Shown here: positions 22,745 to 30,149 of the stretch, one piece after another
Position numbering within the stretch: position 1 is the stretch's first letter
Layout of the letters: each line of letters opens with the position of its first letter
Assembly (NCBI RefSeq): GCF_026000775.1
Contig: NZ_AP026830.1
Span: 558,001-622,000 of the forward strand
DNA length: 64,000 bases
DNA from: Vulcanisaeta souniana JCM 11219
GTDB lineage: Archaea; Thermoproteota; Thermoprotei; Thermoproteales; Thermocladiaceae
Direction of reading: 5' to 3'
Translations under genes and position numbers: made by a program
Notes under the pieces: generated by a model
Database searches by the model: none
What the model saw: only the letters and a program-made list of their open reading frames with translations
Told to the model about the DNA's origin: nothing

Positions 22745-22837
22745 AGCCGGGTCGTCTAGCGGCCAAGGATGGCGGGCTTTGGGCCTGTACAGGGTAGAAA
22801 CCCGTTGACCCCGGTTCGAATCCGGGCCCGGCTACCA
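22745..22837 (+). tRNA. tRNA-Gln (UUG) with a 17-base anticodon-loop intron
   Basis: The acceptor AGCCGGG (22745-22751) pairs with CCCGGCT, followed by A73 (22834) and an encoded CCA (22835-22837). The D-stem is GTCT/GGAT and the T-arm is CCCGG-TTCGAAT-CCGGG. The anticodon stem is GCGGG with CCCGT. Its loop reads C-T-TTG-G-A once 17 bases (22783-22799) are removed at the canonical 37/38 position. Anticodon TTG is at 22779-22781. The intron boundaries are inferred from restoring a seven-base loop. Confidence 0.92.
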
Positions 22838-22909: not shown

Positions 22910-22931
22910 TTGTCACGAAGTACCGTGACAA
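22910..22931. promoter_or_regulatory. 22-bp palindrome upstream of the giant secreted protein gene
   Basis: Arms TTGTCACG and CGTGACAA enclose a six-base centre (AAGTAC). The palindrome lies immediately upstream of a TATA-like ACCTTATAG (about 22933-22942). An almost identical copy occurs at 27800-27821 before the next gene of the block. I found no third copy in the window. The position next to BRE/TATA suggests an activator or repressor site. Confidence 0.8.
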
Positions 22932-23014
22932 AACCTTATAGTTCAACTCTGAACAAGCCCTAATGGTGATGGTTCACGACTATTAAGCCCTCAGTTAGGA
23001 CCATTGTAATTACA

Positions 23015-26000
23015 ATGTTTATAGTTACGTTCTTCACCATAGCTTTCTCGATGGTTGTTGTTACTAAGGCGTCACCCAATGAGCTGGGCTTCACCCTTAT
23101 ACCAATTGGTAATGTCGTGGCTACCGCAGTATCACCGAGTGGTTATATTGCGGCTGTCACTAATAATCCCAATGGTACAGCAACGTTATTCCTCATAGAT
23201 AATGGTAAGATACTATGGAGTAAGCCATTGCCAGCTCAGATCTGCGTATATAACGATGGTAATCACCCATTAACGTTTGTTGGTGATGAGTACATAATTG
23301 TTGCGGACTGCAATAGTGATGTCATGTTAATCAACATCAATGGGGGAGTAGTATGGGTTGATAACGACCTAGAGCCTGGGAATAGTGCAACAGGTGTTGA
23401 TAGTTATAGTGATTTAGTCCTCGTAACCTTCGGCATTTCCTGGAATAACACGGGTGCGCCCGATGCCATGTTACTGAGTCTCAGTAATGGTGAGGTTATT
23501 TGGATGTTCACATACCAACCATACACTGGTGTGCCACATGGCACCCGTGGATATCCACTATTCAGCGGTAATGGCTACTTCGCCTTCTCAATGGGTAATG
23601 GATGGGCTAACGGCGGCACAGTATTCTACTTTAACAATACTGGTCAGTTGGTTTGGAGTTACACGTATGGTGGTGGTTATGACCCATTCTTCACGGCGAT
23701 AACGCCAAGTGGTGATTACGTCATTGTACAGACGATGGACCTATTCAACGTTAATGGAGGTAACACGACATTATTTAACTTGAATGGGCAGGTCGTTTGG
23801 AGTTATGTGACGGGTACCGTGGGTAATAACCAATTCACAGGTGGCAATCCACTATACATGTCACCAAATGGTGAGTACTTCGCAGTAGCCACAGACGGCG
23901 TTGGATCACAATACAATGGTGTATACCTATTCAGCACTAACGGCCTTATGTACCACGCAACAATATTCCCAAGCACAAGTACCTGGTCCTGGCCCTCAGT
24001 AATTGTCTTCAATAACGGCACGGTAATTGCAGGTCTTAATAACCAACTCTATGAATTAGATACACAAGGTAACGTAATAGCCATGGCAACACTACCCTAC
24101 GACATAAGCGACTCAATAGCCATAACAACCAACGGGCAGGTAGTGGCAGTAGGAACAGAAGGAGGACTAATAATCCTTGCACCAAGCCAAGTGGTGCCAC
24201 AGTACGGTAATGCTGTTATCAATGTGTTTAATGTTAATGGTAAGCCCGCATCCACAGTCCCAGGAGCTGTTTATGGCCTACTGATGAATTCGAATTTCCA
24301 AGTGTTTGCCTGGGCCTACATGAACAGTAACTCGCAGTTGATATTCAGTAATGTGCCGCCCGGCACATATGTGCTATACATATACCACTACCCGAATTCA
24401 GGCCTTAACTACACGGAGTATTGGGGTAACTTAACGGTCACGGTCACGGCAGGCCAAACCAGCACCTACAACTTCACCAGAGACATGCCATGGATTGAGA
24501 ATATGTATGCCACACAATCAAGCAGTGGTGCGTACACAATAAACGTAGTCATCAACAACTCACAGGACACAAGCCTCAATGGGGTAGTCACTGTCTATGT
24601 TTCAAGCCAGGAGAGCCAATCAAGCGCCCAGGTACTCACGCAGTCAGTAACCCTAAGCCCAGGAACAAACACTGTGACATTCACATACACACCAAGCCAA
24701 CCGGGCACGTACTACGCATACGCAGTACTCAATGTAACGACACAGCAACCACTAGGCCAACCAATAGCCACAGACCAATACAGCTGGACACAAATAATCC
24801 AGGCATCGTCAACAACCACATCCTACATACTCGTTGGTGATGCCCAAATTCAGAATAACGCGCTCATACTAACTAATGATACACCGGACACGTATGGTGC
24901 CGTGTTTTGGCAAAGCTACTTCGACAGTAATAAGGTGGTTAACCTTGAAATTAACGGTAGTGGTTTCTCAAGTACTGGGTCTGTTCCTGGCGATGGCTTC
25001 GTGTTCTACCTATTCCTGAATCCAAGTAATTGGGGTATTGGGCCGCAGTTCAATAATAACGTGCCCTCATACTCGATATCAGGTGTAAGCCCAGTAATGG
25101 GCAATGTATTCTTCCCACAAAGCACAACACCGTACATAGTTGTTCAATGGGACCCAATTTGGCAGAACGTGTATAGGCAAGTGGGCGTTGTTGGGCAATG
25201 GAACGTGTGGATAATAGGGCCAAAAGGCCAAGTGATAAAGGCATGGAACGGAATAGGATCAGAATCAATTTTTGCACCATACTCTGTGAAAATTGAAATT
25301 AGTTATGATCCAAGTACCAATACACTAATGGGGATAGCATTTACATGGGGGTTTGCAATATCGTTTTTTGCACTTAATCTAAATGGCTACTTTACGCCAC
25401 CGAGTTCCAGTAATTACGTCTTTGGTGTCGGCGCAGCTACAGGCTTTTATCATGGTGAATGGTATCTTGATCAATACACATCCTACTATAATGTTGCTGA
25501 TTATTATGTAGGATACACACAAGGTTCTAATGTAATGTTAGAAGAGCTTGGAAAACTTATAAATAATACTTTATATGGTATTGGTTTACCTGGATATAGC
25601 ACTGCGGTTTCACTTTCTAGCCTTAATTTAGTGAGTGTTGATTTTAGTGGTATAACTAATTACGTGGTTACGATTAACATCAATGATTATACAAACAATG
25701 GCGTTACCTACATACCAATACCAAGCCAACTCACGATAAATCTAACGGACCTACTATGGCCACAGGAAGCATACACGAGTGGACACGGCTTTAGCTTTCA
25801 ATCTTCATCAAATGATTTAATATACATTGTTTTTATCTCTGAGGGTAATGAGTACGGCGTTGTGAATAATTGGAATCCGTTTCTCGATATGTACTCCTAC
25901 GCCAATTACGGCACTAATTATTCACCTGACGGTAATTGTTATGGGCTCTCGAGTACGGCAATACTATACTTCAACCGCTATATACGTGGCGAAAATACGA

Positions 26001-27718
26001 TAGATAGCTTAGTAGTGCCCTATTATCCGTTGCAGGATTATGGACTGACCACGACACCAGCTTATACTGCACAATTATACCTAGGTTATGTTAATTTAAG
26101 TGATGATCTGCTCATTTCGCCACCCCAGTACAATTTAATGCCAGCGGCATTAGAGATTGCAGTACATCAATTTTTTGACCCAAATAATTATTTTCAATTT
26201 AAATCCTTTCTTATTGGATCATGGGCTATTGTAAGTCTAACCCCTAATGACTTTAATTTACTAATTAATATTTTAAATAGCGGGCACCCAGTTGCGTTAG
26301 TGATGTTTAGTAGATCTGCCACCGGGGTAGGTATAGGTTATGCTATTGGTTACCCCTCTGTTATACATGCTGTTGTTGCCTGGGGTTACGCGAAGCTTGC
26401 CAATGGCTCTTATGCAATACTGATTAGCGACCCTGTCTTTCCGGGTACTATTAGGGTTGCTATATACAATCCATCAACTGATACCTTCCATTATACATGG
26501 CCCGATGGCACCACATACATTACATTCTTCGTAATAGAGCCTACTCCGGCTAGGTGGAGTTGGTTTAGTAGTTTTAGTAGTAGTTGTGTTAATGTTAAAT
26601 GTGCTAATATTACTGAGGAGTTGTCGCCGTATACTCTTATTGTTGTTTATGCTGGTTCTCAGTCTAATGAGATTAATGCTAAGGTTTACCTTAAGGGTAA
26701 TTCTTCCATGTATGATACCTTTAACCAGTGGGGTGATTCGCAGTCCTTTGTTGGTTATATTCCTGGTAGTACTGGTGTTTTTGATGGTGATGTTGAGGTC
26801 TTCGCAATACCCAACCAGTACGATGGTGATCTCGAGGTTGATCCAATAGGCACCAGTGTTGGCATATTCATAATGCAGGTCTCAAGCTCCTCAATCAAGG
26901 GCTTCCTAATCAACGCAACATCAAGCAAACCAATCAATGTCACCATTGGCTTAAGGCCATATGGTCTCACCATTACATCTAGTTCCTCAGCAAGCTTGAA
27001 CGTAACAGGTTTCTATATGAGCAGTACTAGGGTTATTGTTAATTCCACAACGGCTGAGCTGGAGCCTAATGAGGCAACCATAATAAACTCCACAGACCTA
27101 ATTGGCGTACCTTTCCTAACAACGACAACCACAACGCCAGTGTCTATGACTATTCCGCCACCCCCGTCATATGCATTCGTCAACGTTATTGCCCCTAGCT
27201 ACGCCAGTTGGCTTGTTTCTGCAATGGCCTCCAATGGTTGGTATGCCGATTACATGGGCGTAGGATCGATGAGTTTTGGACCTGCCTATATTGGTGAGCC
27301 CGGGACTACCGTGACGTTCAACGTCACTAGATTAGGGCATTGCCCAAGCCCATCAATAACCTATGAACCATCGAACACATTAAGCCTAAACTACGGACCT
27401 AATTATGAGACGATAATAATTAATTGTGAACCAACGATGAGCGTGGCGTTAAATGTAACGAGCGGTGGTGGTGTCATAGCATTAGTTAATGAGCCAGGCC
27501 TTGGCCAGAGACAATTAATACTTAATGGACCAACAATAGAAAGCCTGGAACTACCCATTAACACCACAATCACCATATACGCATGGCCATTGCCAGGCTT
27601 CACTGTGGGTGGTATTTACGTTAATGGCAACGCCATGAGCGGCACCAACTTGTATGGAGCCTACGTAATAACAGACACAGTGACAAGCAACCAGAAAATA
27701 ATAACGCAATTCAAGTAA
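23015..27718 (+). CDS. giant secreted multidomain protein with papain-like protease domain
   Basis: A 1567-residue secreted protein. A hydrophobic N-terminus (residues 1-20) is followed by a beta-propeller-like region (about 25-400, repeats such as NGEVIWMF and NGQVVWSY). Then come beta-sandwich domains (about 400-600) and a legume-lectin-like domain (about 604-830, with VPGDGFVFYLF and ISYDPSTNTL). A papain-like C39-type region (about 950-1150) shows Cys975 in DGNCYGLSS, His1118 in VIHAVVAWGY and Asp1139 in LISDPVFPG. C-terminal Thr-rich and beta domains close the protein. No C-terminal anchor is seen. The catalytic assignment rests on motif order and spacing. It is expected to cleave or bind extracellular polymers. 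The frame is open back to 22970 without a standard start. The coding style becomes visibly more AT-rich between about 25.25 and 26.65 kb. Confidence 0.85.
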   Translation: MFIVTFFTIAFSMVVVTKASPNELGFTLIPIGNVVATAVSPSGYIAAVTNNPNGTATLFLIDNGKILWSKPLPAQICVYNDGNHPLTFVGDEYIIVADCNSDVMLININGGVVWVDNDLEPGNSATGVDSYSDLVLVTFGISWNNTGAPDAMLLSLSNGEVIWMFTYQPYTGVPHGTRGYPLFSGNGYFAFSMGNGWANGGTVFYFNNTGQLVWSYTYGGGYDPFFTAITPSGDYVIVQTMDLFNVNGGNTTLFNLNGQVVWSYVTGTVGNNQFTGGNPLYMSPNGEYFAVATDGVGSQYNGVYLFSTNGLMYHATIFPSTSTWSWPSVIVFNNGTVIAGLNNQLYELDTQGNVIAMATLPYDISDSIAITTNGQVVAVGTEGGLIILAPSQVVPQYGNAVINVFNVNGKPASTVPGAVYGLLMNSNFQVFAWAYMNSNSQLIFSNVPPGTYVLYIYHYPNSGLNYTEYWGNLTVTVTAGQTSTYNFTRDMPWIENMYATQSSSGAYTINVVINNSQDTSLNGVVTVYVSSQESQSSAQVLTQSVTLSPGTNTVTFTYTPSQPGTYYAYAVLNVTTQQPLGQPIATDQYSWTQIIQASSTTTSYILVGDAQIQNNALILTNDTPDTYGAVFWQSYFDSNKVVNLEINGSGFSSTGSVPGDGFVFYLFLNPSNWGIGPQFNNNVPSYSISGVSPVMGNVFFPQSTTPYIVVQWDPIWQNVYRQVGVVGQWNVWIIGPKGQVIKAWNGIGSESIFAPYSVKIEISYDPSTNTLMGIAFTWGFAISFFALNLNGYFTPPSSSNYVFGVGAATGFYHGEWYLDQYTSYYNVADYYVGYTQGSNVMLEELGKLINNTLYGIGLPGYSTAVSLSSLNLVSVDFSGITNYVVTININDYTNNGVTYIPIPSQLTINLTDLLWPQEAYTSGHGFSFQSSSNDLIYIVFISEGNEYGVVNNWNPFLDMYSYANYGTNYSPDGNCYGLSSTAILYFNRYIRGENTIDSLVVPYYPLQDYGLTTTPAYTAQLYLGYVNLSDDLLISPPQYNLMPAALEIAVHQFFDPNNYFQFKSFLIGSWAIVSLTPNDFNLLINILNSGHPVALVMFSRSATGVGIGYAIGYPSVIHAVVAWGYAKLANGSYAILISDPVFPGTIRVAIYNPSTDTFHYTWPDGTTYITFFVIEPTPARWSWFSSFSSSCVNVKCANITEELSPYTLIVVYAGSQSNEINAKVYLKGNSSMYDTFNQWGDSQSFVGYIPGSTGVFDGDVEVFAIPNQYDGDLEVDPIGTSVGIFIMQVSSSSIKGFLINATSSKPINVTIGLRPYGLTITSSSSASLNVTGFYMSSTRVIVNSTTAELEPNEATIINSTDLIGVPFLTTTTTTPVSMTIPPPPSYAFVNVIAPSYASWLVSAMASNGWYADYMGVGSMSFGPAYIGEPGTTVTFNVTRLGHCPSPSITYEPSNTLSLNYGPNYETIIINCEPTMSVALNVTSGGGVIALVNEPGLGQRQLILNGPTIESLELPINTTITIYAWPLPGFTVGGIYVNGNAMSGTNLYGAYVITDTVTSNQKIITQFK

Positions 27719-27799
27719 GTCCAGCGTTACGGCATTTCCCATTAAAATCAAAATTCTATTTCTCTTACGACAAGACCTCTTATATTAATTTAGTGATTT

Positions 27800-27821
27800 T
27801 TGTCACGGAATACCGTGACAA
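27800..27821. promoter_or_regulatory. 22-bp palindrome upstream of the coiled-coil protein gene
   Basis: Arms TTGTCACGG and CCGTGACAA enclose a four-base centre (AATA). It differs from the copy at 22910-22931 at only two bases and holds the same position, two to four bases before a TATA element (CCTTAAATA, about 27824-27832). Confidence 0.82.
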
Positions 27822-27865
27822 TTCCTTAAATATGTTCTGGAAATAAGGGGTATGGTGGTTGTTTG

Positions 27866-28771
27866 ATGAACATGGGTATGGTTGGGTTATTGGTTGCCGT
27901 GATTGCCCTGGCTATTGTTTCCGTTTTCTTCGCGTACCAATGGTACACAGCAATACTTAGTTATAAACCGGTGTATCAATCATTAGAGGCAGAATACAAC
28001 TCATTACTTTCCAAGTACAATTCATTAATGACTAACTATACTAACTTGGAAAGCAGTTATAACTCCTTAGAGGGTAATTATAATACCCTACAATCCCAGT
28101 ACAATTCACTTCAAAGCCAATACAGTACCCTGCAGTCAAGGTACAATTCACTAACGATTAATTACACGAACCTACAGTCCAAGTACGATGCATGCATATC
28201 CATGCAGACACCCTTCACAACCTCAGGAACACCAACAACATTACCCGCCGGTACTTATTATGGCCTTGATATAGGAACATATACGCCTTATACGAATTTA
28301 ACACTTGGTCCAGGCACTTATGTCTTTACTACGCAAACTCCGACAATACTTTACTTACTTATTAGTTCGCAACCTGTAACAAGTCAAAGCTTCAATCTCC
28401 AATTAACGCAAGGTACATCGATCTTCATGGGCGAGAACTCGATTACATTAACTCTTAATAAGCCTGAGTATGTGGCCATATTAACACCAACGCAGACGCA
28501 GTTAACTATTACATATAACGGAAAGCAGCTATATATAACTGCAATTCAAAGTGCCCCTAATAATCAAAATAGTTGTGGTTATAATGGCTATCCCTACGGT
28601 TATCAGGGATGCGGCCCCATTTATATAGTACTATGGTTAACAGATGGTTCCCATTACTTCTATGTGAATGGAGCACCATTCTGCACTGGGTTTACGGCAA
28701 ATCCGGTAATGGGTGAGGAGACGATACCCATTGGTTCAGCTAACACATGTTCGGGTGTAACCAATGGCTAA
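27866..28771 (+). CDS. membrane-anchored extracellular coiled-coil protein
   Basis: An N-terminal membrane helix (about residues 4-27) is followed by a heptad coiled coil (about 35-110). The coiled coil is built from repeats of the type YNSLxSx/YTNLxSx and is unusually rich in Tyr, Asn and Ser. A beta-rich globular domain of about 185 residues follows, with two Cys near NSCGYNGYPYGYQGCG and two more near the end. The topology puts the coiled coil and domain outside the cell. The frame can start at TTG 27863, but ATG 27866 is preferred. It shares its upstream palindrome with the giant secreted protein gene, so the two are probably co-regulated. It may tether or present the secreted protein at the surface, which is inference. 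Confidence 0.8.
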   Translation: MNMGMVGLLVAVIALAIVSVFFAYQWYTAILSYKPVYQSLEAEYNSLLSKYNSLMTNYTNLESSYNSLEGNYNTLQSQYNSLQSQYSTLQSRYNSLTINYTNLQSKYDACISMQTPFTTSGTPTTLPAGTYYGLDIGTYTPYTNLTLGPGTYVFTTQTPTILYLLISSQPVTSQSFNLQLTQGTSIFMGENSITLTLNKPEYVAILTPTQTQLTITYNGKQLYITAIQSAPNNQNSCGYNGYPYGYQGCGPIYIVLWLTDGSHYFYVNGAPFCTGFTANPVMGEETIPIGSANTCSGVTNG

Positions 28772-28810: not shown

Positions 28811-29572
28811 TTATATTTGTATTGGTATTTTTAGTGTTCCTGGTGGCGTTAATGATATTCCATGCACTATGTTGTACCTCTTGCTTATGCTAGTCCTCAC
28901 TGAGCCATAACCTGTTAATTCCACATCACCTAAGCTTATTCGTCCATTTATGCCGTAGCTCCTCGGTATCCTTATTATAATATCCTTAATGTTATTGAGT
29001 ATGTCTAAGCTGAAGTAATCTCTTGGTGGGTAGTAGTATAGGTTGAATGAGTAATTGTAGTTAAAGGTGCTTCCTGGGGCCATTGGTTTGCCTAGATTAA
29101 AAACAAGGTTGCACATATTTAATGGGCATTTATCCCTCTCCAGTCTCTCCATTACCTTTACATCACCGCACCTGAACCTTAGTGGTTCATCCCAGTCGAT
29201 ATCTCCATAAACCCTTATGAAGACGTTATTTATATCCACAAGGCCCGTGTTCTGCATCGTTATAGAGACATTGTGCTTCATAATTAGGTAATTGTCCGTA
29301 AGCTCATTAACATTGAGTACTATCTTACCCCTACTAATTAGGCTCCTGCGTGACACAGGCAGTGCGAGGTCATAACCCTCACCACTAACGCACTTAATAA
29401 TAAAACCCATCTTGATACCCTTGTCCAATATCCTGGATAGCTTTTGTTGGTGCCACGAGGTCACTCTCATCAAATCGGTGAATTTAGCACAGGGAACATA
29501 AAATAATAACTTAGTCATAGCTGTCAACAAAAACTGTAAATCGTTATCAAGATAATACTTCTTAAGTTGCAC
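28811..29572 (-). CDS. winged-helix protein with C-terminal beta domain, candidate regulator
   Basis: A 253-residue protein without membrane segments. Residues about 1-85 look like a winged helix-turn-helix (LTAMTKLLFYVPCAKFTDLMRVTSWHQQKLSRILDKGIKMGFI) followed by a wing-like strand pair. The remaining 165 residues are beta-rich with conserved-looking Cys (RCGDVKV, DKCPLNMCNL) and could be a sensor domain. I do not recognise the C-terminal family. It starts at GTG 29572, with a TATA element ATTTTTAAATC (about 29604-29594) about 27 bases upstream, so it is leaderless. It converges on the coiled-coil gene and is the nearest candidate to bind the two palindromes. That link is inference. Confidence 0.65.
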   Translation of the reverse strand: MQLKKYYLDNDLQFLLTAMTKLLFYVPCAKFTDLMRVTSWHQQKLSRILDKGIKMGFIIKCVSGEGYDLALPVSRRSLISRGKIVLNVNELTDNYLIMKHNVSITMQNTGLVDINNVFIRVYGDIDWDEPLRFRCGDVKVMERLERDKCPLNMCNLVFNLGKPMAPGSTFNYNYSFNLYYYPPRDYFSLDILNNIKDIIIRIPRSYGINGRISLGDVELTGYGSVRTSISKRYNIVHGISLTPPGTLKIPIQI

Positions 29573-30149
29573 ATATAAATTAATATTGATGATTTAAAAA
29601 TCTATCTAAAAACGAAATTCATAAATTTATTTTAAATCATTATTTGAATTTATAATAAAGTATTTATTATTTGATTCTCGGATCCATTTATTTAGTGCAT
29701 GAATTTTATATATAATACTATATTTTACATTGCAAATTTATCAATAGTAATAATTAAGAAATCTTTTGAAATAAAATAATGTGGTTATCTCATATTATTA
29801 TAATATTATTTCACATATACTATTATTTTATTCATAATTTAATTAAATAATCGCATTATATCTAAAAAATTTCTATACAGAATATTATAGTTAAATAGTG
29901 CTTTGTATATCGCGGCATACTCATTATGTGCACTCCATTGTTGCGTGAAATTCCTGAATATGGCAAGTATTTTATAATCACCAGAGGTTGACTAAGTAGT
30001 GCCCTAGTAATTGCGTTCATTAAGAAAGCTGTATGGAACGAAGCGACTACTAGCATTGTCATGAATACCCTAGCCAGAAACAAATTGTCATAATCAAACA
30101 CCATATGTTAATTTAAAAGGTAGTGGAGTGATTTAATCGTGGTGCTAAC
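29573..30149. other. AT-rich intergenic stretch
   Basis: This is the most AT-rich part of the window, especially 29600-29880. It holds the promoter of the winged-helix gene at its left end. An 80-codon frame (29862-30104, minus) with one hydrophobic stretch has no recognisable family. I see no repeats of origin type and no RNA gene. The right part (30105-30149) lies just past the end of the MFS carrier gene. Confidence 0.5.

Follow-up and report, generated by a model that had tools for sequence, protein, structure and literature searches.

An archaeal one-component regulator paired with its operator is, as a kind, already known, and to our knowledge few regulator-operator pairs have been described in the Thermoproteales. 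TFB-RF1 (PF1088) of Pyrococcus furiosus is an activator with the element TCTG-N5-CAGA just upstream of BRE/TATA (PMC5937170), and Tar (TK0271) of Thermococcus kodakarensis is an activator with TGGACA-N8-TGTCCA upstream of BRE/TATA (PMC6737238). TrmBL1/Tgr, with the TGM motif TATCAC-N5-GTGATA, activate from upstream of BRE/TATA and repress from downstream of the TATA (PMC4158304), and ArnR/ArnR1 of Sulfolobus acidocaldarius activate a surface-structure promoter through TCGAC-N5-GTCGA boxes (PMC6396743).

In the window described here (the whole stretch of DNA analysed, 64,000 nt), a 22-bp palindrome, TTGTCACG-N6-CGTGACAA, is present before two surface-protein genes, reading TTGTCACGAAGTACCGTGACAA at 22910-22931 and TTGTCACGGAATACCGTGACAA at 27800-27821. 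Our main reading, to which we give a probability of roughly 0.7, is that the palindromes are operators of a one-component regulator, P0003, that activates both genes. The earlier note on this DNA had reported the two near-identical palindromes with their two differing positions; that finding is real and confirmed, and its interpretation is supported in outline. What is added here is a candidate regulator, a rigid TATA geometry and larger regulons in relatives. The features of the locus are as follows.

22910-22931, strand not assigned: putative operator 1, TTGTCACG-AAGTAC-CGTGACAA, 5′ of the giant secreted protein gene; the genome has just one other exact copy
22936-22941, + strand: TATA element for the giant protein gene; a 4-nt gap separates it from operator 1, the same register as at the other operator promoters
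23015-27718, + strand: giant secreted protein P0001, 1567 aa, with a signal peptide-like N-terminus
27800-27821, strand not assigned: putative operator 2, TTGTCACG-GAATAC-CGTGACAA, 5′ of the coiled-coil gene; kept in all five orthologous promoters found
27826-27832, + strand: TATA element TTAAATA of the coiled-coil gene, again separated from its operator (operator 2) by 4 nt
27866-28771, + strand: membrane-anchored coiled-coil protein P0002, 301 aa, with orthologues in four other Vulcanisaeta genomes
28811-29572, − strand: candidate regulator P0003, 253 aa, with an N-terminal winged helix-turn-helix (wHTH) and a C-terminal double beta-sandwich; convergent neighbour
29591-29598, − strand: probable TATA box TTTAAATC of the P0003 gene, whose GTG start codon lies about 26 nt further on

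The arrangement resembles that of TFB-RF1, whose palindrome also stands at a conserved spacing just 5′ of BRE/TATA, whose targets are few and whose gene is linked to one of the operons it targets (PMC5937170), whereas the sequence and half-site spacing are different and a comparison of 19 window promoters did not establish a weak BRE here. With Tar it shares the small regulon and the palindrome upstream of BRE/TATA (PMC6737238), but Tar targets aromatic amino-acid operons, here the targets are surface proteins, and the motifs differ. As with TrmBL1/Tgr, a wHTH dimer (here predicted) would sit on a TCAC...GTGA palindrome (PMC4158304), although TCAC and GTGA are separated by 5 nt there and by 8 nt here, and TrmB carries a sugar-binding domain whereas P0003 gives no Pfam TrmB match. 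ArnR/ArnR1 are likewise crenarchaeal one-component HTH regulators acting through inverted repeats, the role predicted for P0003 (PMC6396743); unlike P0003 with its beta-sandwich domain, they have HAMP-like and transmembrane domains, and two boxes per promoter.

The two palindromes have identical 8-bp arms and differ only in the centre, at positions 9 and 11. That no other copy exists in the window, as previously noted, is borne out up to 3 mismatches (shuffled sequence gave 0.21 matches on average at this threshold). Across the 2.43-Mb genome they are also the only matches at 2 or fewer mismatches over the 16 arm bases, and the two exact copies compare with 0.00015-0.0005 expected per genome by chance. 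At 3 mismatches three further matches appear, which is the background level, the reversed control pattern giving 4. A search for more degenerate sites (12 inner bases, 2 mismatches) returned 34 matches per strand, fewer than the 67 of the reversed control; further regulon members in this genome can therefore not be claimed. One match at 1497279, common to the window genome (G000) and G021, was set aside as it was without the TATA arrangement.

Within the class (81 genomes), the exact pattern WGTCACG-N6-CGTGACW was found in five species, all Vulcanisaeta, while the reversed control pattern gave no matches; a single additional match, in G050, lies inside a methyltransferase-like reading frame and was taken as chance. 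A sixth Vulcanisaeta species, G016, carries a site when one mismatch is allowed. The motif, which the earlier note had proposed to search genome-wide, is thus not scattered, with two copies here and exact copies in the class nearly all from one genus and TATA-adjacent. Orthologues of the coiled-coil gene, 76-85% identical, are present in G016, G017, G018 and G019, and the palindrome was found at the equivalent place before the start in all five orthologues found, the window gene included, which answers a second check that had been proposed. An alignment of these five promoters revealed that the arms are kept (single-base changes in two) and that the N6 centre varies, as does the flank upstream, a pattern that a binding site for a dimeric protein would be expected to leave.

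In total, 19 sites were catalogued. G017 and G018 each have a second palindrome 5′ of a secreted beta-propeller protein gene that lies upstream of the coiled-coil gene and is the counterpart of P0001. In G019, seven palindromes, several of them between divergent promoters, occur within 7.5 kb at another locus (C1:44628-52133), bringing the genome to eight sites, and another four were found in G023, on two short contigs. Genes downstream of these sites encode secreted proteins, a PA14-like protein and membrane proteins, PH-like ones among them; the clusters also include Pkinase and FHA proteins. Several sites in relatives lie between divergent ORFs, one of them being the 42-bp perfect palindrome ttttaaatttTAGTCACGACTAGTCGTGACTAaaatttaaaa. 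The site-plus-TATA pattern at 3 mismatches, searched across the genus, returned the known sites together with scattered weak matches at about the background level. The proposal of a two-gene regulon agrees with the two sites of the window genome, and it falls short in relatives, where the sets of sites are larger. The G019 locus itself (L095, G019:C1:34000-53999, in Vulcanisaeta sp. JCM 16159) combines its seven operators with a protein kinase and the PA14-like and PH-like proteins, and also holds broken pieces of a P0001-like gene. At the coiled-coil operator of G017 (L100, 10863), a TATA-like TTATAG lies 3 nt away on the other side; this side faces a GNAT acetyltransferase gene, possibly an extra divergent target.

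The spacers between palindrome and TATA in the window, aacc before TTATAG at 22936 and ttcc before TTAAATA at 27826, are both exactly 4 nt, so of the distance of two to four bases first given only the upper end stands and the lower values do not. Promoter sides were counted as gene-facing when an ORF of 70 aa or more lay within 150 nt of the palindrome, and in 17 of 19 such sides the TT of the TATA lies exactly 4 nt after the 22-bp element; orthologous promoters among the 19 are not independent, while those of G019 and G023 belong to different genes. The other two have an ATAAATA in the same register and a TATA 1 nt closer, respectively. On palindrome sides without a gene, both of those in the window included, a TATA is mostly absent at the 4-nt register. 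The dyad is thus both kept in orthologous promoters and fixed relative to BRE/TATA.

A palindrome just 5′ of BRE/TATA at near-invariant spacing is best read as the site of an activator contacting TBP or TFB, and because the archaeal regulators described with this arrangement (Tar, TrmBL1/Tgr and TFB-RF1) activate, activation is favoured for P0003 as well. Supposing that P0003 is indeed the protein that binds, we consider activation somewhat the better bet. In the proposed mechanism, a P0003 dimer would grip the two TWGTCACG half-sites through its N-terminal winged-helix domains, placing its recognition helices in successive major grooves. The bound dimer would then be held immediately upstream of BRE/TATA at the fixed 4-nt distance, from where it could contact TBP or TFB and activate the giant secreted and membrane-anchored coiled-coil genes. 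The C-terminal beta-sandwich domain may sense a ligand or a surface-related state, or may serve dimerisation. In relatives the same design would control larger sets of secreted and membrane protein genes, and at divergent promoters one palindrome would face two TATA boxes. The fixed geometry makes activation through TBP/TFB contact testable by shifting the spacing base by base.

The strongest competing explanation, which we regard as possible and clearly less probable, is that P0003 is a repressor: once bound, it would cover part of the BRE and deny TFB access to both promoters until released by a signal. With its final bases, about 5 nt from the TATA box, the palindrome does enter the BRE, but the conserved GTCACG/CGTGAC core ends just upstream of it. 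MarR-type wHTH proteins are commonly repressors, and the N-terminus of a P0003 homologue scores as MarR_2. The P0003 paralogue in G019 is the second gene after an operator, suggesting that this regulator is autoregulated, and its place in a likely operon behind the operator is one often taken by autorepressors. A spacing fixed nearly to the single nucleotide, however, suits contact with TBP/TFB and is less needed for a steric block, and the documented archaeal palindromes upstream of BRE/TATA belong to activators.

That one dedicated regulator reads both palindromes, as the earlier note had supposed, was a good inference, and the genes around the sites offer a concrete candidate in P0003 (28811-29572, − strand). 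Homologues within the class were found in G000, G016, G017, G018, G019 and G023, which are exactly the six site-bearing species, although for G023 the sequence runs into an assembly gap after about 30 N-terminal residues; outside these species the class search gave one marginal partial match, in G028. Neighbouring genes tend to share their gains and losses, which makes co-occurrence at the orthologous locus a weak argument by itself, and linkage would account for part of it. More weight falls on the linkage at a second, non-orthologous locus, though this comes from one genome: in an all-against-all comparison, the coiled-coil locus and the G019 cluster have only two protein families in common, secreted proteins and P0003, which makes P0003 the only putative DNA-binding family common to both unrelated kinds of site-bearing locus. 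Genomes that have related secreted-protein modules and lack P0003 have no site, so the palindrome tracks the regulator and not the target family. No palindrome was found at the promoter of P0003 itself, which counts against our main reading. We consider the pairing of P0003 with the palindrome quite probable. Co-occurrence with the sites would be expected of every gene of the island, and the palindrome might be a real operator read by an unlinked regulator, with P0003 a linked accessory protein; this we hold to be unlikely, given that P0003 is the sole such family at the two unrelated loci and is confined in the class to the six site-bearing species. That the repeats are non-regulatory, as hairpins or terminators or the end of a mobile element, is very improbable: inverted repeats in general and the tRNA-Gln gene just upstream of the first copy could point that way, but the sites precede TATA boxes at fixed spacing, their arms are fixed and their centres vary freely, and they occur as single copies before many different genes, several between divergent promoters.

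P0003 matched no family in Pfam or NCBIfam, and its own family appears to be undescribed in the libraries searched. An AlphaFold2 model from ten aligned sequences (mean pLDDT 86) has three helices and a wing, followed by a beta-sandwich region. The family profile matches winged-helix chains in the PDB, namely MCM, an Lrp-like regulator, MarR, a SorC-type protein and CodY (best E 0.003). The N-terminus of a Sulfolobaceae-like homologue (L190) scores above the Pfam cut-offs for MarR_2, MarR and IclR, and P0003 itself gives E=0.17 against a MarR-type domain, below cut-off. The architecture of the MarR family, a helical dimerisation region flanking the wHTH in about 140-180 aa, was not found in the modelled P0003, which has a single helix ahead of the HTH, a beta-sandwich domain following it and a length of 253 aa. 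Five family members scanned whole gave no Pfam TrmB match, and the wHTH of one homologue alone scored E=0.033 for TrmB. For the beta-sandwich, Foldseek against the PDB returned Ost1/ribophorin and M1 aminopeptidase N-domains at a TM of about 0.35-0.48, a general resemblance that allows no assignment.

Strong homologues outside Vulcanisaeta are patchy, occurring in 4 of 398 genomes of the phylum (E <1e-20), all in family f32, which the analysis suggests to be the Sulfolobaceae. Such homologues are present in 5 of the 31 genomes of that family and often lie near secreted-protein genes; relatives in viral contigs were not found. The palindrome search established no operator near the Sulfolobaceae homologues. 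One element 5′ of a distant homologue gene, TTACTCAC-N7-GTGAGTCA on the regulator strand (L190 10127-10149, G297), lies 4 nt before an A/T-rich TATA-like stretch and is suggestive, but chance matches of that quality are common and we do not count it as an operator. We would give even odds to the broader view that P0003 founds a new crenarchaeal transcription-factor family of Vulcanisaeta and some Sulfolobaceae, with a MarR-like winged helix and a double beta-sandwich sensor, regulating extracellular proteins from its accessory island through a rigid palindrome-4 nt-TATA module that can be mirrored to serve two divergent genes from one dimer. Sequence alone has in this way yielded a compact, testable pair, a 22-bp site and a neighbouring protein of an unclassified family, which ties patchily distributed large extracellular proteins to one control circuit.

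P0001 has PQQ/beta-propeller-like repeats, a lectin/PA14-like region and a weak C39-like peptidase signature. It had been called a secreted protease; the protease part of that name corresponds only to this weak papain/C39-like match (E=0.0048, below the Pfam cut-off), and a PDB search gave no papain/C39-like match. The gene lies directly downstream of a tRNA-Gln (TTG) gene (22745-22837) that ends 72 bp 5′ of the first palindrome. Its true start may be up to 15 codons upstream of the annotated ATG: between the in-frame stop at 22967 and the ATG at 23015 there is no ATG, GTG or TTG, the residues KPSVRTIVIT encoded there resemble the n-region of a signal peptide, and translation may begin at a rare codon such as ATT at 22982. 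In G019, the first half is missing from the P0001-like gene at L103 6524-10362 (G019:C10), and the regulator gene and the coiled-coil gene of this locus are each split in frame, a second, intact regulator being present elsewhere in that genome.
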